NCBI GenBank assembly: GCA_019096195.1
Contig: JAGTXK010000229.1
Coordinates: 372,001-436,000 of the forward strand
Length of the DNA: 64,000 bases
Reading direction: 5' to 3'
From: Boletus sp. NGJ
Taxonomy: Eukaryota > Basidiomycota > Agaricomycetes > Boletales > Boletaceae
The translations under genes and the position numbers were made by a program. This document shows, piece after piece, positions 6,801 to 57,077 of the stretch (within the stretch, counting starts at the first letter, position 1; every line of letters starts with the position of its first letter). The notes below the pieces were generated by a model. It saw only the letters and a program-made list of their open reading frames with translations, was not told the DNA's origin and searched no databases.

Positions 6801-7083
6801 TCCAGTTGGACCCTCACTATAAGCACTGTGTTACTGTCCAGTACTGTCCAGCACTGGACAGTTAGTCCTGTTTTTACTGATGAGAGCCCAGAGCTTGGGC
6901 CTGGCCTAAATAAGGCCTGAAAGGAAAGCTCCAAATTAGCAGTATTCTTGGCACATGTCATACATGCAGATGGTATGGCTGTATGTTTGGGCTGGTAAGG
7001 CTATTCTTTGATGTTGGACATAATTTCTGTAATAAGTGAAGAAATGGAATTTGCAGATGAAATGAAAATTTCATATCCACTTA
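6801..7083. other. spacer, nothing recognised
   Basis: Contains a short GC-rich island with ggcctggcctaaataaggcctg (about 6898-6920). No gene. Confidence 0.35.
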
Positions 7084-7420
7084 CAGTGGCTCAAAAAAGT
7101 ATTCCAATATTTGGCTATTTTGGAAAGACTTGATATTTGTAAAAGAGCAAAAGGTATTAGCTCTAACCCTTGCTGGGTCATCAATAGCCCTAACCCTTGC
7201 CCTGAAAATGAACCCTTAATCATGTGATCTGGTTGTCATGGCACTGAGATATAATCATATTAAAATAATATGTCATTGGGACACTTTTTTGACTCTGATA
7301 TTATTAACTATCATTTAGTAAATAACATATGGTTTTAATGGATGCTGTGCTTCAACCCTGTCTGATTATGTCACCTACATAATTCTAAATGATATAAAGA
7401 GCAGAGGTACCATGCAGCTA
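7084..7420 (+). mobile_element. left-end fragment of a Tc1-like element, family C
   Basis: Starts after TA (7082-7083) with cagtggctcaaaaaagt. It is colinear, in inverse orientation, with the right end and transposase 5' leader of the fuller copy at 47652-49221. It contains the ~230-bp terminal repeat, its inner inverted end motif (cattgggacacttttttgactc, 7273-7294) and about 100 bp of leader. It stops where Tc1-like element A starts at 7421, so A inserted into it. Its remaining part is not found downstream of 18091 and is presumably deleted. Confidence 0.8.
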
Positions 7421-7583
7421 CAGTGACCTCCAAAACTGTTGCAATATTTAACCCTGATGTGGTGTGTGCAGCACACCACAAACACCCGTGGGAATTACAC
7501 TTCGCTTTGGTGGGAACAAACACAGTACACACTCGTGGCTACAATCCGGCCTCTGGATCAGGTGATTTGAATCAGAGGCTATG
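7421..7583 (-). mobile_element. Tc1-like element A, left part (split by retro 1)
   Basis: Follows TA at 7419-7420 and starts cagtgacctccaaaactgttgc. It resembles the terminal repeat of element D (55461-57075), including the GC-rich gtgcagcacacc palindrome. It is interrupted after ggctatg by retro 1 and resumes at 17566 with ctgtggagttatg. The junction duplication is ctatg/ctgtg. Confidence 0.85.
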
Positions 7584-8014
7584 TGTTACAGTTACCGAAG
7601 GGGGTACATCTTTTCCCCTTCCTTCTCCCCCCGTAGGACTATGGGACAACCTATTCTTCGACTCAGACCAGGGATTCCCCTGTGACATCAACTCAGGCAT
7701 TGCCCCATCCAGAACCTCCTTTCTAGGAAGTTATTCATAACTCCCCTTTTTAGGAACCTACTCATTTGGTATGAACACCGCCTCTCTTATTTCATCTGAT
7801 ACATGATTTCTTCCTTCTTGACCTGATCATAGACATTGCCTCCTTGGCTGTGCTCTCTTGTGCATAGCCCAGTATTCCTACCTTTCCATTTTCTGACTCA
7901 TGCCTTGATCAGTTTATAGTAATCTTTCGTCTGTGACTAATGATTACTATATTCGTTATGAAGCCTGCCCTAGACAGGTAAGGCCTATAAATAGGGATGT
8001 GGGCCCTTCATGTA

Positions 8015-9588
8015 CAGTGGCTCAAAAAACTGTCCGCATGTTTGGTCATTTTTCACTAAATGCATTATTCCCCAATAACCCCTAACCCTTACCCTAACAT
8101 ATAGGTGTATGAAATAAAGCACTGACCCTTGGCTTTCTATCCATCAAGGTTTCAAGACATATGAATAAGAATTGACGAACTGGCAGCCATTTCAAAACAA
8201 TGACTCATTCAGACAGTTTTTTGACTCTAAATTTATCTAGATATCTAGTACTTGGTATGAGCTCCTTTGGCCTTGATAACTGCTTCAATCCTTCTAGGCA
8301 TACTTTCTATCCATTTCTGACACTGTTCCTCATCAATCTTTCCCCACTGCTCCACTACTCTTTCCCACAATTGATGAATACCTGTAGGAGCATTTTCATA
8401 ACCTGAGAGGCATATCTTGAGGTGATTCCAAGTATGTTCAATGGAATTAAGGTCTGGAGATTGTGCAGGCCAGTCCAGAAGCTTGATTCCTTGCTCTTCA
8501 AACCATCTTTGGGCTCTTTTAGAGGTATGCTTGGGATCATTATTTTGTTGAAAGATAATGTCATCTTCTGGAATTCCAGATTCCTCCATGCTTTGTAGCA
8601 ACCCCTGCTCCAATATGGCCACATACTGTTCAGCATCCATTCTCCCCTCCACCTCACTCAAAATCCCCACTCCATTCCACCCTATGCAGCCCCATACCAT
8701 CAGTAAACCTCCTCCAAACTTGACTGTGCCTTGGACCTTTCTAGCAATTAGCCCCTCTCCTCTCTTTTTCCACACATACTCTTGCCCATCTGACCCAATC
8801 CTATTGATCTTTGTCTCATCTGACCATATAACTCTCTTCCAGTCCTCCACAGTCCAATGCTGGTACTTGAGAGCAAAGGCTAATCTTCTTTTCTTGTGAC
8901 CACTAGGAAGCAGTGGCTTTTTCTTCTTTACCACAGCCTTTAAGGAGGCTTCCTTGAGAGTATTTCTAACAGTCTGAGGATAGAAAGGGGTATCAATAAT
9001 GGTATTGATGTATTGGGTAGCATGAACAGCATTCCTGGCCTTGCTAGTAATAATTTGCTGGACAATAGCTCTTTTGTTGGTAGAGGTGAGCTTGGAAGGA
9101 CAGCTATCAAGAAGCCTAGTCTTCTCTGGCTGGAGTTCCTAAAGCACTTGGCATACTGTAGACTTCCCTAGGCCAGTTTGGGCAGAGATTTTCCTAGAGG
9201 AAAGCCCATGAGAGGAGAGAGAGATGATATTGTTTCTTTGAGAGATGGAAATGGATTTTATGGTGATGGTGGAAAAATAAACATGGAATGATGGAGTTTA
9301 TATATGTTGTCTGACACTCAGTTACATAATGGTGACATAATAGAAGCCTTACCAAATGTATGTAATCAAAACTTAGAGTCAAAAAACTGTCCGAATGAGT
9401 CATTGTTTTGAAATGGCTGCCAGTTCATCAATTCTTATTTATATGTCCTCAAACCTTGATGGATAGAAAGTCAAGGGTCAGTGCTTTATTTCATACACCT
9501 ATTTGATAGGGTAAGGATTAGGGATTATTTGGAAATAACATGTTTAGTGAAAAATGACCAAACATGTGGACAGTTTTTTGAGCCACTG
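8015..9588 (-). mobile_element. Tc1-like DNA transposon B, inserted in the LTR of retro 1
   Basis: 1574 bp flanked by TA (8013-8014 and 9589-9590), matching the single TA of the empty site in the other LTR. The terminal inverted repeats are about 214 bp (8015-8229 and 9375-9588). Each repeat has the motif gctcaaaaaactgtccg at its outer end and an oppositely oriented copy (cagttttttgactc) at its inner end. It carries one transposase frame on the minus strand. This is the youngest insertion in the left nest, since it lies inside retro 1. Confidence 0.95.
8245..9261 (-). pseudogene. Tc1/mariner transposase (DD34E type) of element B, inactive
   Basis: Cut-and-paste transposase of the Tc1 group. 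From 8934 down to 8245 the frame is open for 229 codons and shows the DDE_3 core: WSDETKINR (first Asp), the GG.LMVWGC block, the NDPKHT block, SPDLNSIEH (Glu) and a C-terminal PRRIEAVIKAKG. The helix-turn-helix half lies upstream in the same frame. Against the related transposase of element C, three faults appear: the start codon position reads ATA (9259-9261), a TAG lies at 9139-9141, and the second catalytic Asp is Asn (QQNND where C and D have QQDND). The protein is therefore almost certainly dead, and mobilisation would have needed a transposase from another copy. Confidence 0.9.
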
Positions 9589-10168
9589 TAACTCTAACCT
9601 AGATCTACACTCCTTCCTGTGTAATCTACCTGCTTCTCCTGTTAAAGGTTCCACTTCGCCTCAGAAGCCTTCCCCACGCTCTGGAGGTGATCGCCCTCGC
9701 GCTTGTGATCATCTTACTCATCACTTCGCACTTGTGCGCCATTGTTGCCGTTACAGGCTTCTAAAGCTTCGGCAACTCCAACGACCAACAGAGGTTGGTC
9801 GTCGTCGGTCAAGACTCTGCCACTGACCCAGCAAGCCCGGGACTCCACCACCGGCACTCGTAACACCAGGACTCCGCCACCGGTACTAGGCCCAGTAAGC
9901 CCAGAGAATCAGCTGATGGAAGGCAACTGCTCTCTGGCCTGCACACCGGTCTGCCCACCCTTCTTATAGGATTGGGATTCCGTGGTAAATCCAAGACTCT
10001 GCCATTGGTCGTAGAGGTAACAAGAGGACTCTATGTAAAGCTAGCAGTTGGTCCCCAGTCAGAGGAAACCTTGGGCCTCTGGAGGTTGAGTAATCCCTCA
10101 AGTCCTGCTAGTCCTATAATTCAACAGGGGTTATATGGGAATGTGTCACATTGTTACCCGGCATAACA

Positions 10169-10487
10169 AAAGATCTAGGTTATAAATTGCTGAAGACTAT
10201 TCAGTCTAGCAACTCCCATCGTCATTCCAAGGAATTAAAACCGCCTATCAGAGGATAGGCCCTCACTCTACGCACTGTGCAGAATCAACCTTTCCCATCT
10301 CCTAGAAGAAGATCGAGAAGAAGAAGCCACATCATCATGGGCTTCTACTCCTATCTCCAATATGTCTTCATCAAGAAGGATCCCAGGGTCATCATCCCAT
10401 TACAACGACCCTCCCACCTGTGCATTTCCAGAACAACCCAGATGACCAGATTTTCCAGATAGTCTCCACTCTCGAACTTCGACCCCA
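10169..10487 (+). other. retro 1 leader between 5' LTR and gag
   Basis: Non-coding leader starting aaagatctaggttataaattgc. The same leader follows the 5' LTR of retro 2 at 45412. No TGG-type primer-binding site is seen directly after the LTR. Confidence 0.6.
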
Positions 10488-11558
10488 TTGGACGCTTCCA
10501 TCCCACTGCCAGCGTTCCAACCAGTCCCCATCCGAGTAGACTCACCCAACCCACTATTCCCAAGTGGAAGATCTAGTCCCAATCCAGGAAATCCCCGGCC
10601 CAAAGAAGACACAGATGATGAAGACGATATGGTTGAAATTAAAGCTGCCCTGCCTGAGGAGTTCTCAGGGGAGACAAACGATGCCAAGAGATGGCTCATG
10701 GCTATGGAAGGATACCTCCATCTAGGAGGTGCAGAGAAGTTCACCGAGGAAGCCAAGAGGCTTATCCTGCTGAACTGGATGTCCAAGGGAAGAGGAAAAG
10801 CGTTTGCAGAAGCTTGGCTGACCAGGCTACTCGACGACACCGTGCCACTCGCAGACAAATCCTATAATGAAATCAAGAAAGCCTTCGCCCTCACCTTCAC
10901 CCCCCATAACACTAGCAACCTGGCAATGGCAGAACTAGGGTCTCTCTGACAAAACACTAAAGACCCGAAGGGATTCGACAAGTTCATCTCCCAGTTCTCA
11001 CCGCTAGTGGTTCGCTCAGAACTACAAGAATTCCATTCCATCCTCGAATTCTTCCTTAGGGGGATCAACCCAAGTATCGCCCAACAGATGGTTAACAGCG
11101 AGACCTTCCAAAAAGCCAAGAAAATGGGAGAGGTCTACAAAGTAGCTGCTAACATCCATGGAGCATGGCAACGAATTGAAGGAATACAGAAAGGACCCTT
11201 TGTGTCCTTTGGAAGAGGCTGAGGAAATCACCACGATCCGAACGCAATGGACATAGACAGGATCACGTTATCTCCTATCGAATGGGCCAAGCGGATGAGA
11301 GAGCGAAGATGCTTCATCTGCAACAAGACTGGGTGCAGTACCAAGAACCACCCAGGATATCAGCCAGTTAGGAAAGAGGAATATAGGAAACCACAGGAAA
11401 CGCACACTAGGGTGATCGTCACCCAAGAAACGCCACAAGATCCCCTCGACAAGTATCTCGCAGAAGTCGCCAGAAATAATGGACGAGACACAGTTCTCAG
11501 AACGCTGCAGACAGTCTACGACATGGGACTGGATGAGCAAGGACTCATTTTGAAATGA
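10488..11558 (+). pseudogene. retro 1 gag region, fossil
   Basis: Gag-like capsid region. An acidic lead (DTDDEDD) precedes a capsid-type helical part (EFSGETNDAKRWLMAMEGYL and following), then a small Cys/His motif of the form C-x2-C-x4-C-x4-H (about 11311-11352). The same parts are seen in retro 2 (45719-46900). It is broken, with a few breaks. Confidence 0.85.
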
Positions 11559-11689
11559 GTACACGAAGCTGCCACAAAGGAATGGGAAGAAAACGTCAAC
11601 TCTCTTGCCCTAGGACCCGCTACACAAATTTCCCCTTCTCCCATAGACCAAACGTCTTTTTAGGTGGAAGAGATGTACCAATGTCACCC

Positions 11690-14600
11690 TCTTCCTACAC
11701 GATTGCACCTGTATTTATTTCCGGATCGAAGAGTAATTCTATTCGCATTCCTCTCTTGATCTAGAAGCAGGATGGCAAAATCGTTGGAACACAAGCCTTA
11801 ATCAATAGTGGAGCAACAGGATGCTTCATCTCAAGACACACGGTGGAAAAGATGGGGTTACCCACATGGAAACTGGACAATCTGGTCCGAGCTTGGAACA
11901 TCGATGAAACCCAAAACCAGTCTGGGACCATCAAGGAAAGGACCAATATCGTGTTGGACTACGGAGGCATACGAGAACAGCAGGATCTCTATGTCCTCAA
12001 TTGCGGCAAGGATGAAGTCATTCTAGGACTTCCATGGCTCAGGGCAGTAAACCCTGACATTAACTGGATGGAAGGACGGGTAACAATAGTACTGTCTTCC
12101 TATCGGTGGACTCAAGGCGATCCACCCAGAACACTCGAACAGTGATACCTACTGAGGTATCTGGAACATGACGAAAGGGAGTACATGCAAGACGGACTCT
12201 ACGAAACCTTTTGCCACTGGACGCCCTTGCAACAGGCCAGGTTCTTCAACGTGCATGGGGATGTACCAGAGTTTGTCATCAAAAGGACCACTCTGTCTAC
12301 CGAGATCGCCCAACAGGCACAGAAGAAGAAGAGCGCATTACCTAATGCATTCAAGGAATACGAAGACGTCTTCACGGAGAAGACGATCACCAAGCTACCT
12401 CCCTCTAGGCAATACGACCACGCCATTGAGTTAAAAGACTCGTTCGTTCCAAAACGAGCCAAGGTGTACCCTCTCAACCCATTGGAACAATAGGCATGCC
12501 GGGAATTCATTGCCGAACACCTCAAGACTGGGAAGATATCGCCATCAAAATCTCCCCAGGCTGCTCCTTTCTTCTTTGTACAGAAGAAAGATGGGAAACT
12601 CCGCCCCTGCCAAGACTACCGATACCTTAATAGCCACATGATCAAGAATGCCTACCCTCTCCCCTTAATTTCTGACCTCCTGGACAAATTAAAGGGATCG
12701 TCAATTTTCACCAAATTCGACGTACGATGGGGTTACAACAACGTCTTGATCAAACCAGAAGATCGGTGGAAAGCGGCTTTTCTCACTCCATTCGGGCTAT
12801 TTGAGCCAAACATCATGTTCTTCGGAATGTGCAATTCCCCAGCAACGTTCCAAGCATTCATGGACGATCTGTTGATTCATTCTTCAGATCAGGAAACCCA
12901 CAATGAAAGGACACGGAAGGTCCTAGAACGCTTCCGACAGCATGAAATGTACCTCAAATTGGAGAAGTGTATCTTCTCAGCCGAAGAAGTTGAATATCTC
13001 GGGATGATCGTAGGGAAGGATGAAGTCCAGATGGACCCGATCAAACTCAACACCATCAAGCAATGGAAGCCTCCAGTAAACGTAAAGGACGTACGGTCCT
13101 TCATCAGATTCTGTAATTTCTACAGGAAGTTTATCCCCTCCTTTTCCGACATCGCACGTCCTTTGCTGAACCTCACAAAGCAAACAACGACCTGGTCTTG
13201 GGAACCACTTCAAGAAAAATCATTCAGAACCCTACAAGCGGCTTTCACCAAGAAACCCGTCCTCGCCTTCCCAGATACCTCAAAACCCTTCACCCTCATG
13301 ACAGATGCCTCGCTTACAGTGTCAGGAGCAGTACTCATGCAAAACAACGATAACGGAGATATGCAACTGTGTGGCTTTCTCTCAGAAACGTTCTCTCTGG
13401 CGGAGAGAAATTATGACATCTATGACAGGGAACTACTGGCTGTCATATGAGGATTGAAGGAATGGCGGCAATACCTCCTTGGATCCCCCCACCCCATAAC
13501 AGTGTTGACCGACCACAAGAACTTGACGTTCTTCAAGGAACCCCGCCAACTATCCCGGCGACAGGCACGCTGGCTTTTGTTCCTCCAAGACTATGATATG
13601 GTCTACCAAGCCCTACCTGGAACAAAAATGGCCCCTGCAGATGCTTTATCTCGCCAGGATGAGATCAATACTTCCAAGGACAACGAAGATGTGCAACTCC
13701 TCCCATCCAATGCATTCAACTATCAAGTACGAATGATCGACCTAGCCTTGGCCAAGAAAATCAAGGAATCCGCCCAGAACGATCCTTTGGTGCTCTCTGC
13801 CTTAGAATGCATAGAACAAGAAGAACCTCTCTTCACCCGGTCCAATGTGGAAGACTGGACCTTTGACAATGGTAACCTCTACTTCAAGAACCGGATGTAC
13901 ATCCCCGGCCCAGCTAGGCAGGAGTTGGTTTCCTCTATCCATTCCTTGTTTGAGGGAGGACACGGCGGACACCTTCGCACCACCCAACTCCTCGCCAAAG
14001 ACTACTGGTGGCCCGGACTTACTACATTCGTCCGCAAATACGTCGCTGGTTGCGCCATCTGCCAGAGTAACAAGGTCCAGACACACCCTACGGTTCCCCC
14101 GGTCATCCCTCTAGCCTTCCAAGGATGCCGCCCTTTCCAAAATCTATTGGTGGATTTAATCACCAACCTACCCCCAGTGGGGGGTTTCAATTCGGTCATG
14201 GTCGTGGTCGACCATGGGCTTAGTAAGGGGGTAATTCTCGCCCCTTGCACAAAAATGGTAGACGCGGCTGGTATAGCCCGTCTTTTCTTTGAAAAGGTCT
14301 TCCTATGGTACAGTTTACACGACAAATTGGTTTCAGATTGTGGCCCACAGTTCGCATCTGTGTTCGCTCGGGAACTTGCCAGACTCCTGAACTACGACGT
14401 CGCCCTTTCCATGGCCTACCATCCACAAACAGATGGTGAAATGGAATGATATAACCAAGAATTAGAAACCTACCTATGGATATTCTGCAATGGCCAGCCA
14501 CAGAAGTGGCTGGATTTACTACCTATGGCAGAGTTCGCCCACAACTCTGCAACCCACTTGGTCACCAGAAAATCACCCTTCTCCTTGATTCTTGAATATG

Positions 14601-15166
14601 AACCAAGAGCATATCCTTCTATCGGAAAAACCTTCCTACCAGCCCTGGAGGAAAGACTCTCTTTTCTAGAAGAATCAAGAAAGGAAGCAGAAGCGGCACA
14701 CCAACTGGCACAACTACGCATGAAGGAGAGAGTTCACTCTCGCTTCAAACCCTGGAAACTCGGAGATAAAGTATGGCTGGATGCCAAAAACCTAAAACTC
14801 CAAGTCCCTTCTTGAAAACTATCACCAAAACGAACTGGACCATTTGAAATCACTCAAGTGGTGTCCTCCGTGGCGTTCCAACTCAAGTTGCCAAAACAGT
14901 GGAAAATCCACGATGTGTTCCATGCATCCCTACTTTCCCCATATCGGGAAACCACGGAACACGGTCCCAATTTCACTCAACCCCCACCGGAACTTGTCAG
15001 AACCAATGAGAAATATGAAGTGGACAGCATCATCAACCATCGGGGAAAACCAGGAAAAAGACAGTACCTGACACACTGGAAAGGATACTCCACAGCAGAA
15101 CGAACTTGGGAACCAGAGGCCAATCTTGGAAACGCCAAGAAGATACTACTGGAGTATAAAAGGTGA
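11690..15166 (+). pseudogene. retro 1 pol region: protease, RT, RNase H, integrase, chromodomain, fossil
   Basis: Parts in order, approximate: aspartic protease (11700-12145), reverse transcriptase (12400-13100), RNase H (13270-13660), integrase HHCC domain (13950-14080), integrase core (14090-14450) and its C-terminal part (to about 14820), then a chromodomain at the 3' end (about 15010-15160, YLTHWKGY and TWEP motifs). A chromodomain after integrase marks the chromovirus branch of Ty3/gypsy. It is broken, with several breaks; the longest open stretch is about 330 codons in RNase H/integrase. Confidence 0.9.
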
Positions 15167-15355
15167 CTCAGACTCTAAGATGAACCCATGCCCCGAGAAA
15201 ACACCTCCCTCTTCATTCTACTTGCCTGAGTATCCGCTGCCCTCACCCAAGCCCGTCTTCAGAAGCAATACCCAGATCTTGACATCCCCAAACACATCGA
15301 ACAACACTGGTGCTTCTGCAAGATTGATTACTGCCCCTATCATCACACCTGGTAG

Positions 15356-16517
15356 ATGACTCTCCCCCCCCTTTCCGTACACCTCAACAGACTCTCCCCC
15401 ACTCACCATCGAAATCTCTATGCCGCCATTCTTGACGACCCCATCGCAGTTCAAACCCTCCAGACCATCCCCTTCTTCTCCTGCGATGACTCACTCGTCC
15501 AACTCGTCGCCCTCTGTAGATCTTACTCCTCACTTCGATCCCTTCTCTCCCAGACCCATGGGAACTTGGCAGGTCCCTATGACTCCAATGCCCAACAGAC
15601 CGCTGAAGAAGAAAGGGCAATGGAAGGGATCCTCGAGATTCGTGAACTTGTTCTCGACCTCCTTTTCATTGAGGGATTCAACTATTCCCTTGCCCTTCTG
15701 CCCATCAACACCCGTGATCGCCTCCTCCACCCCACCATCCTCTCCCTCATGGAGGAAGAAAGTCGCGTTTTCTTTGCCCCCTCGACAACTGCCATGCCCT
15801 CCTACCCCGTTCCCCCTAGACAAGTCCCCTCCGTGGTGGAGCGACCCATGGAGAACATCAACGGAATCAGAAGCACTAACAGAGTTGATAGAGACCCTCC
15901 AGAAACATGGAGAGCCCAGTCCTCCAATGACACCGTTGTCGCCTACCCCTCCTCCACAAGTCCCAACCCCTCCTCTCGAGGAACCCCCTCAATACCAGTC
16001 CTCCCAGTTCCTCCCCCAGCCATTTCCCGACCCACCAGAACCCTCCGCCAACGAGGGGCCATGGTGTTCTCGGTCGGCCTTCCCTCTCGCCCCAACGACC
16101 GAGGTCTTCTCCACACACTGGGGGACTCTACAATGAGGAGCCCTACTCCTTCCGCCGTTCCCATTCCTGGGGCCGCCGCAGGCGCCTCTCCTACCAGCCA
16201 TCCCGACTCAATGGCTAGTAATCCCAATCCCCTGCCCAGTGCCGGATCGCCTCATAACCATCGAAGCTCCCCTCACCAGCATCCGCTGCTACGAATGCGG
16301 ACGTCAAGGTCACCTTCGGCCCGCCTGCCCCCAGTACCGCTGCCCCTACTGTAGGATGGTTGCCCCCAACCATCCACAGTATGCTTGCCCACGAAGAACT
16401 TGCACATACTGTGGGGGACGAGGACACGGCTACCAGACGTGCCCCAGTCAGGGAGTCTTTGACGACTCCTGGGACCTTACCAATTACGAGGAGAACGAGG
16501 GAGTTCGGAGTTCTTGA
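15356..16517 (+). pseudogene. retro 1 extra 3' region (ORF3) with helical module, Pro-rich linker and zinc knuckles, fossil
   Basis: Lies between the chromodomain and the 3' LTR. An N-terminal helical, Leu-rich module (about 15400-15770) is followed by a long Pro/Ser-rich linker and then three consecutive Cys/His knuckles (about 16287-16450). Two of the knuckles have the classical C-x2-C-x4-H-x4-C spacing (CYECGRQGHLRPAC, CTYCGGRGHGYQTC). Equivalent regions sit at the same place in retro 2 (about 53025-54380) and retro 3 (about 42050-43300, minus). The function is unknown; the knuckles suggest nucleic-acid binding. It is open in pieces only. Confidence 0.75.
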
Positions 16518-16547
16518 GATGGAACTTCAAGACTACGAGGAGGGTAA

Positions 16548-17565
16548 TGTTACGGTTACCGAAGGGGGTACATCTTTTCCCCTTCCCTCTCCCCCCGTAG
16601 GACTATGGGACGACCTATTCTTCGACTCGGACCAGGGATTCCCCTGGATTCCCCCGACACCGACTCAGGCATTGCCCCATCCGGAACCTCCTTTCTAGGA
16701 AGTTATTCATAACTCCCCTTTTTAGGAACCTACCCGTTTGGTATGGACACCGCCTCTCCTATTTCACCTGATACATGCTCTCTTCCTTCTTGACCCGATC
16801 ATAGACATTGCCTCCTTGGCTGTGCTCTCTCGTGCATAGCCCAGTATTCCTACCTTCCCCATTTTCTGACTCATGCCTTGATCCGTTTATAGTAATCTTT
16901 CGTCTGCGACTAACGATTACTATATTCGTTATGAAGCCTGCCCTAGACGGGTAAGGCCTATAAATAGGGACGCGGGCCCTTCATGTAACTCTAACCTAGA
17001 TCTACACTCCTTCCCATGTAATCTACCTGCTTCTCCCGCTAAAGGTTCCACTTCACCTCAGAAGCCTTCCCCACGCTCTGGAGGTGATCGCCCTCGCGCT
17101 TGTGATCATCTTACTCATCACTTCGCACTTGTGCGCCGTCGTTGCCATTACAGGCTTCTAAAGCTTCGGCAACTCCAACGACCAACAGAGGTTGGTCGTC
17201 GTCGGTCAGGACTCCGCCACTGACCCAGCAAGCCCGGGACTCCGCCACCGGCACTCGTAACACCGGGACTCCGCCACCGGTACTAGGCCCAGTAAGCCCA
17301 GAGAATCAGCTGACGGAAGGCAACTGCTCTCTGGCCTGCGCACCGGTCTGCCCACCCTTCTTATAGGATTGGGATTCCGTGGTAAATCCAAGACTCCGCC
17401 ATTGGTCGTAGAGGTAACGAGAGGACTCTACGTAAAGCTAGCAGTTGGTCCCCAGTCAGAGGAAACCTTGGGCCTCTGGAGGTTGAGTAATCCCTCAAGT
17501 CCTGCTAGTCCTATAATCCAACAGGGGTTATACGGGAATGTGTCACATTGTTACCCGGCGTAACA
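16548..17565 (+). repeat. 3' LTR of retro 1
   Basis: 1018 bp, tgttacggttaccg...ggcgtaaca, with TATA-like tataaata at 16959-16966. It preserves the uninterrupted site of the Tc1-like insertion seen in the 5' LTR. Confidence 0.93.
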
Positions 17566-18091
17566 CTGTGGAGTTATGTCCATTTCAAAACAGCAATACC
17601 ATTACAACAGTTTTGCATCTCTTGATATGAAGTGGGTATTAGTACTTGGTATAGCCTCCTTTTGCCTTGAGCACTGCCTCAACCCTCCTAGGCATGCTTT
17701 CAATTAACTTCTGACACTCCTTAAGTGGTACCCCCTCCCATTCCACCTGAACTCTCTCCCATAACTCATAAATTCCACTAGGAGGTTGTTTTTGATCTGC
17801 TAGCCTTCTTTTGAGGTGACCCCAGAGGTGTTCAATGGGGTTGAGGTCAGGAGACTGTCCTGGCCATATTATAGTCCCAAAATCCTGCTCTCCAAGCCAC
17901 TCTTTTACCTTTTTGCAAGTATGCTTGGAGGGTCTAGACCATAATAGTGCAGAGTATTCAGCAGCTCATCCTTTAAAATCTGAAGATAAAGGTCTTTATC
18001 CATCCTACCATCAATCTTGATAGCATAGCCAACTCCCTGCCAAGTCATACACCTCCACATCATGAAAGAACCTCCTCCAAACTTTGAGGTC
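17566..18091 (-). mobile_element. Tc1-like element A, right part, truncated
   Basis: Continues the terminal repeat broken at 7583 (ctgtggagttatg...), with the inner inverted end motif (ccattacaacagttttgc, about 17599-17616). It then holds the C-terminal part of a minus-strand Tc1-type transposase. Blocks for the PRR.EAVLKAKGG tail, the SPDLNPIEH region and a GGGSFMMW block are recognisable by similarity to element D. The sequence stops at 18091 against a solo LTR, and the rest of the transposase and the right terminal repeat are absent. Confidence 0.8.
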
Positions 18092-47651: not shown

Positions 47652-49221
47652 CAGTTTTTGCAAAGACTTGACATTTGCAAAAGAACCAAAAGGTATTAGC
47701 CCTAACCCTTGCTGGGCCATTGATAGCACTAGTCCTTGCTCTGAAGATGAGCCCTTAGTCATATAATTTGGTCGTCATGGCACTGAGATATAGCCATATT
47801 AAAGTGACATGTCATTGGGACACTTTTTTGAGCAACATTTCTATTCTTCAATTTAGTACTTTGTATGCCCTCCCTTTGCTTTTATCACTGCCTCTAGTCT
47901 TCTAGGCATACTCTCTATCAATCCTTGACACTCCTCAACCTCTATCTTCCCCCACTCCACTTCAATTCTCTCCCAAAGCTCCCATACTCCTTTTGGTGGT
48001 GTTGTATAGCTATTGAGTTTTTTTTTTGAGGATTTGCCAGAGATGTTCAATGGGATTAAGGTCTGGAGATTGTGCTGGCCAGTCAAGAAGCTTGATCTCT
48101 TGAGATTCCAGCCACTCCTTGGCTCTTTTAGAGGTGTGCTTGGGGTCATTATCTTGTTGAAAGATAATGCTCTCTTCAGGAATTCCAGAATTTTCCATGG
48201 AAGGAAGCAGATTATCCTCCAAAATGGAGACATACTGCTCAGCATTCATCCTCCCTTCAACCTCTGCAAGAATCCCCACTCCACTCCAACTCATGCATCC
48301 CCAAACCATCAAGGAACCTCCTCCAAACTTTACTGTTCCCTGAACTTCCTTGTCTTGCAAAGACTTTCCTGCCAATTTCCATACATACTTCCTTCCATCT
48401 GACCCAATCCTGTTGATCTTGGTTTCATCTGACCATCTAACCCTAGTCCAGTCCTCCACAGTCCAATGTTGGTGCTTGAGAGCAAAGGCTAGCCTATGTT
48501 GCCTATGCTTCACAGACAAGAGTGGCTTCTTTTTCTTGACTACAGCCTTGAGAGATGCAGACTTGAGAACATTCCTAACAGTTTGAGCGGAGACAGGAGA
48601 AGAGAGAGCAGAATTGATGAGATGGGTAGCCTGGACAGCATTTTCAACTTTGCCAGAGGTAATACTAGAGACAATTCTCCTTTTATCAGTAGGAGAAAGT
48701 TTAGAAGGACATCCTAATTTGATGTTTTCCTTGCCTGGGTGGATCTCCTTGATAACCCTGGCCACAGTAGACTTCCCCAGACCAGTTTGGAATGATATTT
48801 GCCTAGTAGAAAGGCCAGATTCAGAGAGAAAAAGAATATTGGCTCTAGCAGAGGAGGGAGTGGATTTCATAATGAAGTAGGGTTGGCTGAATGGTATCTC
48901 TGCTCTTTATACCATTTGGAGTTATGTAAGTGACATAATCAGACAGGGTTGAAGCACAGCATCCATCAGAACCTTATGTTATTTACTAAATGATAGTTGA
49001 TAATATCAGGGTCAAATAAGTGTCCCAATGACATATCCTTTTAATATGGCTATATCTCAGTGCCATGACAACCAACTCACATGACTAAGGGCTCATCTTC
49101 AGGGCAAGGATTAGGGCTATCAATGGCCCAGCAAGGGTTAGGGCTAATATCTTTTGGTTCTTTTGCAAATGTCAAGTCTTTGCAAAATAGTCAAACATTG
49201 GGACACTTTTTTGACCCACTG
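47652..49221 (-). mobile_element. Tc1-like DNA transposon C, inserted in retro 2
   Basis: 1570 bp flanked by TA (47650-47651 and 49222-49223). The empty site is readable in retro 1 (ggcaatacgaccacgcc). The right terminal repeat (about 49010-49221) is complete, with outer cactg end and inner inverted end motif. The left repeat has lost about 35 bp just inside its outer end (cagt joins tttgcaaagacttg). One transposase frame on the minus strand fills most of the interior. The fragment at 7084-7420 is an older copy of the same family. Confidence 0.93.
47853..48870 (-). pseudogene. Tc1/mariner transposase (DD34E) of element C, nearly intact
   Basis: From 48870 the frame is open for 286 codons. 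An N-terminal helix-turn-helix (STRQISFQTGLGKSTVARVI) is followed by a GCPSKLSP linker, a second HTH region and then the DDE_3 core with WSDETKINR, QQDNDPKHT and SPDLNPIEHLW. There are 34 residues between the second Asp and the Glu, so DD34E. All three catalytic residues are present. The last ~55 codons (ELWERIEVEWGK ... PRRLEAVIKAKGGHTKY, ending 47853) continue in another frame across a run of ten A on the coding strand (48018-48027). Length would be about 340 aa, normal for Tc1. It is the best-preserved transposase of the window, and a single slip separates it from an uninterrupted frame. Confidence 0.9.
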
Positions 49222-50882: not shown

Positions 50883-53024
50883 GGAGTCCAGATGGACCCA
50901 GTGAAGCTCAATGCCATCAAGCAATGGAGACCCCCGGTGAATGTAAAGAACGTACAGTCCTTCATCAGGTTCTGTAATTTTTACATCTTTCTCTGACATT
51001 GCATGTCCTTTGCTGGACCTCACAAAGCAAACAATGGCTTGGTCCTGGGGATCACTTCAAGAAAAATTGTTCAGAACCCTACAGGCAGCATTCACCAAGA
51101 AACCCGTTCCTGCCTTCCCTGATATTTCAAAACCCTTCACCCTCATAACAGACACATCTCTCACTGCGTCAGGAGTGGTACTCATGCAGAACAACGACAA
51201 TGGAGATATGCAACCATGTGGTTACCTCTCCAAGACTTTCTCTCCGGCTAAGAGAAATTACGATATCTATGATAGGGAACTACTGGCTGTTATATGAGGA
51301 TTGAAAGAATGGCAGCAATACCTCCTTGGATCCCTCCACTCTGTAACAGTGTTAACCGACCACAAGAACTTAACGTTCTTCAAGGAACCCCATCAATTAT
51401 CCCGACGACAAGTGAGATGGCTTTTGTTCCTCCAAGACTATGACATGGTCTACGAAGCTCTATCTGAAACTAAAATGGCCCCTGCAGACGTGCTATCTCA
51501 TCGGGATGAAATCAATACTTCCAAGGACAATGAAGATGTGCAACTCCTCCCATTAGATGCATTTGACTGTCAAGTATGGTTGATCGACCTGGCACTGGCC
51601 AAGAAAATTAAGGGATCATCTCAAAGCGATCCCCTAGTACTCTCTGCCATACAAAATATGGCGCAAGGAGAATCTCTCTTCACCTGGTCCAAAGTAGAAG
51701 ATTGGACCTTCAACAATGGCAATCTATACTTCAAGAACTGAATGTACATCCCTGGCCTGGCCTGACAGGAGTTAGTATCCTCCGTTCATTTCTCTTTTGA
51801 GGGAGGACATGGCAGACACCTTCACACCGCTGCACTTCTGGCCAAAGACTATTGGTGGCCTGGGCTCACTACATTCGTCTGGAAATTCGTTGCTGGTTGT
51901 GCTGTTTGTCAAAGCAACAAGGTCCAAACACACCCTATGGTTCCCCCGATTACCCCCCTAGCTTTTGAGGGCCACTGCCCTTTCCAACATCTATCAGTGG
52001 ATTTGATCACCGACCTACCCCCAGCGGGGGGTTTTGATTCAGTCATGGTTGTGGTCAACCATGGGCTTAGTAAGGAGGTAATTCTTGCCTCTTGCACAAA
52101 AATGGTGGATGCGACTGGTATAGCCTGTCTTTTCTTCAAAAAAGTCTTCCTATGGTATGGTTTATATGACAAGATGGTTTCAGATCGTGGTTCATAGTTT
52201 GCATCCACATTTGCTCGGGAGCTCACTAGGCTCTTCAACTATGATGTTGCCCTTTCCATGGCCTACCACCCACAAATGGATGGTGAAATGGAATGATACA
52301 ACCAGGAACTAGAAACCTACCTATGGATATTCTGCGATGGCCAACCACAGAGGTGGTTGGAACTATTACCCATGGTGGAATTCGCTCATAACTCTGCAAC
52401 CCACTCGGTCACCAGAAAATCGCCCTTCTCCTTGATCCTGGGATATAAACTGAGAGCATATCCTTCTATTGGAAAAACCTTCCTACTGGCCCTAGAAGAA
52501 AGACTCTCATTCCTAGAAGAATCAAGAAAGGAAGCAGAAGTGGCACATAAATTGGCACAACTACACATGAAAGAGAGAGTCCACTCTCGCTTCAAACCCT
52601 GGAAACTCAGAGATAAGGTATGGCTGGATGCTAAGAACCTGAAACTCCAAGTCCCCTCCTGAAGCTGTTCCCGAAATGAACTGGACCATTTGAAATTACT
52701 CAAGTGGTATCCTCCATAGCGTTCCGACTCAAGTTATCAAAACAGTGGAAGATCCACAATGTGTTCCACACATCCCTACTTTCTCCATATCAGGAAACTG
52801 TGGAACATGGTCCCAATTTCACTCAACCACCACTGGAACTTGTCAGAACAGAAGAGGAGTACGAAGTGGACAGCATCATCAACCATCAGGGAAACTGGGA
52901 AGAAGGCAGTATCTAACCCACTGGAAGGGATACTCCGCAGCAGAATGAACTTGGGAACCAGAGGCCAACCTGGGAAACACCAAGAAAATACTCTTGGATT
53001 ATAAAAAGCAACTCAAACTCTGAG

Positions 53025-55301: not shown

Positions 55302-55460
55302 TGTGCAGTCAGAAACAAATTTCTGGACAAATGTAGAGAGACTGGGCCACCAATCCTCTTTTGCTAGGAGGGCCAGGGTGCATAGATGGCCACCATGGCC
55401 ACCTTCAGGTGATTCATGAAGGGAGGTGACTAGGTCTTTGCATGCTTGTTCAGGAACATA
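55302..55460 (-). pseudogene. retro 3 integrase zinc-binding (HHCC) part, fossil
   Basis: The minus frame reads GGHGGHLCTLALLAKEDWW and FVSDCTVC, the HHCC domain of a Ty3/gypsy integrase, caught between retro 2 on the left and Tc1-like element D on the right. Confidence 0.8.
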
Positions 55461-57075
55461 CAGTGACTCCAAAAACCCTTTCCATGCTAACCCTCAATGT
55501 GGTGCGTGAAGCGCACCACCACACACTGTGGGAATTCCGCTTAGCTTTGGTGGAGTTATAAATAGTACATACTCTTGGCTGCGAGATTGCTCCCTAGGTC
55601 GTGTGATGTGGTCCACAGGCTGTGGAGATATGATCAATATGAAACAGTAATACCATGGAAAGGGTTTTTTCACCTTTGAATTGAAAAGGGTATTTGGATA
55701 TTATCAGTACTTGGTATAGCCTCCTTTTGCTCTCAGCACTGCCTGGATCCTCCTAGGCATGCTTTCAATCAATTTCTGACACTCCTCCACTGGTATCCTA
55801 TCCCACTCCACTTGAACCCTTTCCCACAATTCATGAATTCCATTAGGGGGGTTTTCATGCTTTGCAAGGCTCCTCTTCAGACAACTCCAGAGATGTTCAA
55901 TAGGGTTGAGGTCAGGAGATTGTGCAGACCACACCATAGTACTGAATTCTTGCTCCTCTAGCCAGTTCTTGACCAGCCTGCAGGTATGCTTGGGGTCATT
56001 GTCCTGCTGAAAGATGATGTTAGGAGGATTGAGACCATAATACTCCAGGGTTTGCTGAAGCTCATCCTTCAAAATTTGAAGGTAGAGGTCCCCATCCATC
56101 CTACCATCAATCTTAGTAGCAAAGCCAACTCCCTCCCAAGTCATACAGCCCCACATCATCAGAGAACCTCCTCCAAACTTGAGGGTTCCATCCACCAGCC
56201 TATCACTAAGCCCCTCACCTGCCCTCTTCCATGCCCATTTACGCCCATCTGACCCTAGGCGATTGATTTTGGTCTCATCAGACCATATCACCTTCTTCCA
56301 ATCCTCCATAGTCCAATCCTTATGTGCATAGGCAAAATCCAAGCGAGCCTTGTGATGCCTAGCAGAGAGGAGGGGACGTTTGGACTTCACCACAGCTTTC
56401 ATACCAGCTTTCTTCAAGTGGAGGCGGACAGTATTGGCAGAGAGGGGTTGGTTGATGATATTGGTGAGGGCTTTGGTTACTTGGACAGCATTTTCAGCTT
56501 TCCCGGAGGTGATTAGATGTTGGGCATGACGGATGTTGGTGGGAGAAAGCCTGGAAGGACGACCCCCAGGAGCTTTAGGAGAAGGGCAGAACGCTCTTTG
56601 GAGCGAAGCTTGGATATGGCAGAAGGGCTGACACCAGTTTGCTTGGCAATGGCTTCACCAGAGCAGCCAGAATCAAGCAAAGAGAGAATAGTGCTTTGTT
56701 GGGGAAGAGAGAGGGATTTGACCATGGTGGCGGTTGAGAATCAAGAAGTGTGTGAACTTTTTTAAGCTCAGACATGCTATTTATATGTATATCTTTGTTT
56801 GCATGAACAAACAATGGCAAATATGATATGATTTGACTAAGATCCTAGTCATCAGTTCAAAAGTGAAAAAACCCTCTCCATGGTATTACTGTTTCACATT
56901 GATCATATCTCCACAGCCTGTGGACCAAATCACATGACCTAGGAAGCAATCTCATAGCCAAGAGTATGTACTATTTATAACCCCGCCAAAGCTACGCGAA
57001 ATTCCCACAGTGTGTGGTGGTGCACTTCGTGCACCACATTGAGGGTTAGCATGGAAAGGGTTTTTGGAGTCACTG
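55461..57075 (-). mobile_element. Tc1-like DNA transposon D, inserted in retro 3
   Basis: 1615 bp flanked by TA (55459-55460 and 57076-57077). Terminal inverted repeats are about 214 bp (55461 to about 55675, about 56862 to 57075). Each has cagtgactccaaaaaccctttccatg at the outer end and an oppositely oriented accatggaaagggttttttcac copy at the inner end. Within each repeat lie further palindromes (ggtgcgtgaagcgcacc; ccacaggctgtgg). Element A (7421-18091) is a relative. Confidence 0.95.
55704..56725 (-). pseudogene. Tc1/mariner transposase (DD34E) of element D, one frameshift
   Basis: The N-terminal ~50 residues (MVKSLSLPQQSTILSLLDSG, a helix-turn-helix with GEAIAKQTGVSPSAISKLR) lie in one frame from 56725. 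From about 56590 down to 55704 the rest is open in a second frame: a GGRPSRLSP linker, the second HTH and the DDE_3 core (WSDETKINR, QQDNDPKHT, SPDLNPIEHLW; 34 residues between Asp and Glu), ending RAKGGYTKY. All three catalytic residues are present. The single frame change falls at about 56570-56595. Total about 340 aa. A domesticated role is unlikely, as it sits in its own terminal repeats. Confidence 0.9.
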
Positions 57076-57077
57076 TA

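Follow-up and report, generated by a model that had tools for sequence, protein, structure and literature searches.

Tc1-type transposons of Boletus sp. NGJ with two oppositely oriented core motifs per terminal repeat: a probable 'IR/IR' variant of the Sleeping Beauty-type architecture

Results

Element D and its four cores

The window, as we call the whole stretch of 64,000 nucleotides of Boletus sp. NGJ analyzed here, contains a Tc1-type transposon at positions 55461 to 57075 (G000:C44:427461-429075 in the assembly), which we refer to as element D. It is flanked by TA dinucleotides at 55459-55460 and 57076-57077, noted directly at this element and independently of the extraction pattern used below. 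Its left and right terminal repeats occupy 55461-55684 and 56852-57075. Counting the TA, the arms (55459-55684 and 56852-57077) measure 226 nt each, around repeats of 224 bp, are 93% complementary and lie 1167 nt apart. The end reads TA-CAGTGACTCCAAAAACCCTTTCCATG from 55459, and its mirror finishes at 57077.

The transposase is encoded on the minus strand, in a frame of 316 aa from stop to stop (55704-56654). Pfam searches found HTH_Tnp_Tc3_2 and DDE_3, and the protein shows traits of the Tc1 DD34E family: counted by eye, 34 residues separate the second D from the E (QDN...PIEH). For the transposases of this group, the best relative with a solved structure was the catalytic domain of Sleeping Beauty (5cr4, E 1.2e-56). 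An AlphaFold model reached a pLDDT of 43.5, too low for use. Open frames of 338 aa, at least three of them, are present in family C.

Within each 224-bp repeat, a core at positions 11-29 is accompanied by an inverted copy at 191-209. In window coordinates, AAAAACCCTTTCCATG is found without mismatches at the left outer (55471-55486, plus strand), left inner (55654-55669, minus) and right outer sites (57050-57065, minus), and with one mismatch at the right inner site (56867-56882, plus), which runs opposite to the outer core of that side. The inner copy equals the outer one from the A-run inward and lacks the 4 bp 'ctcc', just as the first-pass annotation of this DNA had bracketed them. These four sites are all the matches of AAAAACCCTTTCCATG in the window with up to two mismatches, against 0.07 expected from shuffled sequences.

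Related elements in the window

The same layout, with other motifs, had been proposed for further elements of the window, and it was recovered for B and C. Element B (8015-9588, minus strand; 8013-9590 as an insertion) has cores at 8022-8040 (plus), 8206-8224 (minus), 9379-9397 (plus) and 9563-9581 (minus). A family C copy that lacks its left outer end (47656-49221, minus strand) shows them at 47813-47831 (minus), 49012-49030 (plus) and 49196-49214 (minus). Finally, a family C relic consisting of one terminal repeat (7084-7418, plus strand), cut by element A at 7419, has cores at 7091-7109 (plus, three mismatches) and 7274-7292 (minus). A joint B/C core pattern gave ten matches in the window with up to three mismatches, compared with 0.17 expected; beyond the nine B and C cores, the tenth lies at 52136 (three mismatches).

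Regarding element A, the head-to-head layout held, while the idea of two ends at 7421 and about 17605 did not. The outer part of one terminal repeat lies at 7421-7583 (plus strand), with the outer core at 7431-7445 (plus). The element resumes at about 17568-18084 (minus strand) with the inner core at 17601-17615 (minus, one mismatch) and part of the transposase gene. What splits the repeat is an LTR retrotransposon (about 7584-17565) whose LTR segments are 92.5% and 96.6% identical. We thus rejected a 10-kb element A with two ends, the two motifs being the outer and inner core of a single split repeat. The left LTR of this retrotransposon in turn harbors element B, so that 7082-18084 is a four-deep nest: the C relic received element A (at 7419), A received the retrotransposon and the retrotransposon received B. 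In B and C, the spacers within the terminal repeats also contain stretches similar to CTAACCCT (window positions 7158-7203 and 8080-8095), and a gene of the window matches ChAPs, a fungal protein family.

Families and extracted copies

DNA, family and pattern searches of the assembly (32.8 Mb in 141 contigs) identified seven families, A, B, C, D, D2, F and G, the letters A to D being those of the first-pass annotation. All the counts below come from this one genome and from families that are related to each other. From 95 loci and two window elements we extracted 75 copies with two TA-flanked ends, belonging to six families. They represent 74 distinct insertions, as L001 and the window's element D are the same one, and include a duplicated pair, L027 and L030. 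Their 150 ends are distributed among C (60), D (40), B (16), F (16), A (12) and D2 (6). All 75 copies have TA at both ends, largely by construction, given that the ends were picked with a TA pattern. The rule of two TA ends left 22 loci without an extracted copy. An outer core was absent from three of these (L021, L069 and L070), and in L023 and L061 the ends are cut off; the 21 distinct readable ends of the dropped loci all have an inverted inner core and none a direct one.

The inner core is inverted

Allowing up to three mismatches, 149 of the 150 extracted ends have an outer core and 146 an inverted inner core, with no direct inner core at any end. All four cores are present in 70 of the 75 copies. 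The earlier suggestion that the head-to-head layout is a conserved feature of this lineage, present in diverged families, is supported. One could argue that motifs as A-rich as these cores would pair in inverted orientation anywhere, by chance or low complexity. We aligned the outer 34 nt locally with the inside of each repeat: the inverted score exceeded the best of 200 shuffles at 137 of the 150 ends, but the direct score did so at none. These counts, along with the excess of AAAAACCCTTTCCATG matches in the window, refute this explanation, to which we give practically no weight.

The four ends that failed are the left ends of L013 and L027 and the right ends of L030 and L068, the last with four mismatches. 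In L013, a D copy, the inner core has gone through a short deletion. L027 and L030, which each lack one of the two inner cores, show 97% likeness across 4.2 kb including the flanks, so transposition without an inner core was rejected here in favor of a duplication that included the flanks. Three D copies with internal deletions (L026, L028 and L085) retain their inner cores; each is a single copy, hence no test of whether the inner cores are needed.

Searches of the whole assembly with exact degenerate patterns gave the same orientation. Among 143 outer ends of the A/D/F/G type, 78 have an inverted core 150-180 bp further on and one has a direct core. In the sole direct case (C97:418521-418715), the second core is the outer core of an A element that lies next to a G outer end. 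For the 372 B/C outer ends, the counts were 237 inverted and 0 direct. The ends without an exact inner core number 65 of 143 and 135 of 372, respectively, with mutation, truncation and nesting expected among the causes. Fifteen of the 143 ends belong to family G by their longer end, and the inner pattern does not fit G. Family G is known from its outer end only (TACAGTGACTTCCAAAATTGAGTCAAT; L061, L094 and L095); the inverted core predicted from this end was found at 3 of the 15 ends, and a direct one at none, when about 7e-6 would be expected by simple arithmetic (a 13-mer, 31 places, 15 ends). The other 12 G ends gave no exact match to it. At L094 and L095, D and A element ends lie 121 and 167 bp from the G end. 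Besides, some B/C outer ends, 5 among the first 100 listed, are less than 250 bp from a contig start (C3:126, C11:35, C12:71, C14:124 and C25:211 in G000), which would fit either a tendency of the assembly to break at such repeats or a preference for subtelomeric sites.

Outer and inner cores change together

The cores are family-specific: AAAAACCCTTTCCATG in D, CAAAACTGTTGCAATG in A, CAAAACTGTTCCAATA in F, AAAAAACTGTCCG(C/A)ATG in B and AAAAAAGTGTCCCAATG in C, D and D2 having a common core. The inner core of a family tracks the outer core of that family, which is the co-variation that the first-pass annotation had put forward as a check. Mean identity between outer and inner cores is 14-17.5 of 18 positions within families versus 7.5-16 between families. 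When the inner cores were assigned to the outer cores of the families in all 720 ways, a permutation that takes these related families as independent, two assignments came out on top, the true one and apparently the swap of D and D2 with their common core. Where sister families differ in the core, the difference is found at both the outer and the inner site in 8 of 10 cases by our own count: 5 of 5 for D/A, 1 of 2 for A/F (the second is on one end only) and 2 of 3 for C/B. At their 3' ends, D and A share 78% of spacer positions and 63% of the positions of the outer core (12/19). There, the core has thus not changed less than its surroundings; it has changed alike at both sites.

We then looked at divergence from the family consensus in 70 copies of five families, leaving out D2, one A copy of unclear direction and one duplicate. 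Inner cores differed at 61 of 2620 sites, outer cores at 55 of 2660 and spacers at 605 of 22613. The result named beforehand as refuting, an inner core that is lost or drifts freely beside a conserved outer end, was not found among these copies: inner and outer cores did not differ significantly (pooled p 0.57). However, inner cores and spacers did not differ significantly either (pooled p 0.33), which makes this test weak. C was the only family with a significantly lower inner divergence (6/1133 versus 201/9758 in the spacer, p 7e-5), and in F (21/303 versus 81/2444) and B (13/304 versus 82/2556) the inner core was the more diverged. As the copies are young, within-family divergence is modest evidence.

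These results bear on a different explanation, namely that copying from arm to arm (by gene conversion or template switching) or a hairpin or cruciform keeps the cores alike, with no protein reading the inner one. In its favor, the pooled inner core is no more conserved than the spacer, and the whole-strand fold of the D repeat beats all 200 shuffles. But the match between outer and inner copies ends at the core, the flanks being different, and most of the differences between sister families appear on both ends. Folding itself gave no sign of a conserved hairpin, a possibility that had been raised for these repeats: the inner region alone folds with z values of -0.9 to 0.9 in 11 consensus ends, that is, with no excess. 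Whole-repeat strands, folded for D and B, gave z values of -4.3 and -2.1, which the inverted cores alone would produce and which hence do not support a hairpin. Moreover, outer and inner copies mismatch at some core positions in B, D2 and the 5' end of C. A cruciform with a loop of about 160 nt is implausible in duplex DNA. We regard this explanation as quite improbable.

Spacing and the block beside the inner core

Out of 146 ends with both cores, 123 have a core-to-core gap of 165-170 bp. The commonest gap is 167 bp in D (27/39), 165 in C (47/59) and B (12/16), 166 in A (8/12) and 168 in F (8/16). The spacing is not rigid: gaps range from 146 to 168 bp in F, 133 to 165 in B and 138 to 173 in C, and deviations are most frequent in F. 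In the consensus of D, D2, A, B and C, the outer-core start and the inner-core end add up to 218-220; the sum of 209-210 in F comes from copies that vary in length, so that majority columns are lost.

The spacers of the A/D/F and B/C clades are hardly alike (z 0.9 to 4.2), with two of four cross-clade pairs above all 300 shuffles (A-B and D-C, not D-B and A-C). Within the A/D/F clade they are clearly alike (z 15.6 to 22), and B with C gives a z of 3.3. The spacer taken for this test includes part of the block described below. As some likeness persists across clades, simple common ancestry may account for part of the similarity in spacing.

Five C ends, each on a different one of the 30 C copies extracted, have a gap of 138-139 bp. 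In these copies (L031, L032, L039, L045 and L055) one terminal repeat is 27 bp shorter, and two 16-bp repeats lie 27 bp apart. Each copy is nearest to L050 and not to the others in a tree that is star-like and weak. We rejected the idea that they form mobile lineages; they look like separate deletions between the 16-bp repeats.

On its outward side, when the repeat is read from within the element, the inner core adjoins a block conserved between clades and absent at the outer site; its sequence, TGTTTTGAAATGG, is identical in A and B (examples of the region in the window are 55624-55646 in D and 17580-17592 in A). None of 2000 shuffles gave an identity as long as that between A and B, and 12 of 2000 matched the 9 nt common to D2 and B. 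The likeness was not significant in the shuffle test for F-B, A-C, F-C and B-C, and the blocks of F, D and C are similar by eye only. By analogy, this block may be a bending or host-factor site, since in Sleeping Beauty HMGB1 helps to bend the DNA at the inner repeat (PMC7827188, in excerpt).

The DNA-binding domain

Pfam detected the second helix-turn-helix of the transposases; the first appeared in A alone and below the cut-off (HTH_7, 22.5 bits against 23.8). By its residues, the first one reads TGVSPSAISKL in most D and D2 copies compared, TGLHASTISRL in A, TGVGIATISRL in three of five F copies, from which the remaining two deviate at one or two residues, and TGLGKSTV in C and most B copies compared. 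It is thus the same in D and D2, which have a common core, and different in A and F, a correlation over few families.

Discussion

The terminal repeats described here combine an outer core with an inverted inner core at a usual distance, the two change together between families, and the transposase is a relative of Sleeping Beauty. We consider it probable that these elements are an 'IR/IR' variant of the Sleeping Beauty-type DD34E Tc1 transposons, with two opposite transposase sites per repeat, of which the inner one is not cleavable and likely has a role in synapsis. Binding of the transposase at the inner core and its role in synapsis we infer from sequence. Each terminal repeat would have two transposase sites, about 183 bp apart from centre to centre and in opposite orientation (IR/IR for IR/DR). 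The N-terminal helix-turn-helix, PAI-like, would read the family-specific core at both. Cleavage would occur at the outer site alone, as only this site adjoins the TA/CAGTG cleavage end. Such an end is absent from the inner site, a point to consider for the earlier idea that each repeat works as a small paired-end unit. The inner site and the adjoining block (TGTTTTGAAATGG in A and B) would most likely load transposase and aid the synapsis of the ends, by analogy with the inner direct repeat of Sleeping Beauty. In that system the inner site has the higher affinity for transposase and is where dimers collect, the outer sites being engaged afterwards, and all four sites are needed (PMC7827188, in excerpt).

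The inner core might instead be an operator through which the transposase represses its own promoter, the copy downstream of the gene existing only because the repeats stay alike. Inner cores do bracket the gene closely (in D, 55654-55669 next to a frame ending at 55704), and the Bari transposase reduces expression from the left TIR of Bari3 (PMC4120734, in excerpt). We find this unlikely, as the core is also retained 3' of the gene, where it is useless for an operator, and the usual distance to the outer site is maintained in both clades.

Going back to the IR/IR reading, a further step is conceivable. With the inner site turned, the relation of outer to inner core is that of two transposon ends, so a loop could be conceived within one end. 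Each repeat would then be a dyad, on which a dimer closes a cleavage-proof loop of about 183 bp in cis and must afterwards release the inner site in exchange for the outer end on the opposite side before it can cut. We put this forward tentatively and think it somewhat doubtful. If true, inverted sites in place of direct ones would provide an assembly checkpoint and the elements a separate architectural class of Tc1 (IR/IR).

We found no description of oppositely oriented sites in a Tc1 TIR in the literature searched, which was available partly as excerpts and covered few subscription papers, and one scan each of viral and prokaryotic contig collections gave no relatives elsewhere. A second region bound by the transposase, about 180 bp from the end, has reportedly been seen in Tc3 of C. 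elegans, in work by Colloms dated 1994. Tc3 is treated as a single-site element in PMC7827188 (in excerpt). As for fungi, a survey of Tc1/mariner elements in Sclerotinia gives TIRs of 36-70 bp, with no direct repeats inside them (PMC4188875, in excerpt).

Comparison with other known systems yields partial likenesses. Bari1 and Bari3 also have several transposase sites per end, and Bari2 and Bari3 have long TIRs; unlike here, the Bari ends carry three direct repeats each (PMC8834629, PMC4120734 and PMC3828361, in excerpt). piggyBac shares the presence of internal inverted repeats besides the terminal ones, but it belongs to another superfamily, with a TTAA target, a 13-bp TIR and asymmetric 19-bp internal repeats (PMC2874221, in excerpt).

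The closest comparison is with the IR/DR group of Sleeping Beauty, Frog Prince and Minos (PMC3680223, PMC7827188 and PMC11754664, all in excerpt). Our elements resemble the group in the Sleeping Beauty-like catalytic domain, the TIRs of more than 200 bp, the TA target, the outer and inner copies of a common core (18 bp in Sleeping Beauty) with different flanks, and the similar distance of the inner copy (165-166 bp in Sleeping Beauty). They differ in that the two cores of one repeat are opposite here and in the same orientation there, a contrast drawn from the outset that our counts bear out. IR/DR ends are by definition ends with two sites 'in the same orientation' (PMC3680223, in excerpt), and it is on ends of this kind that models of ordered assembly are based. 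By this definition the elements of Boletus are not classed as IR/DR, though they may work likewise. That this lineage keeps a common core, comparable spacing and a related transposase, yet has the inner site reversed, suggests that direct orientation is not required by a Sleeping Beauty-type transposase. These transposons offer a natural comparison for the role of the inner site, and their families with different cores constitute matched pairs of transposase and site.
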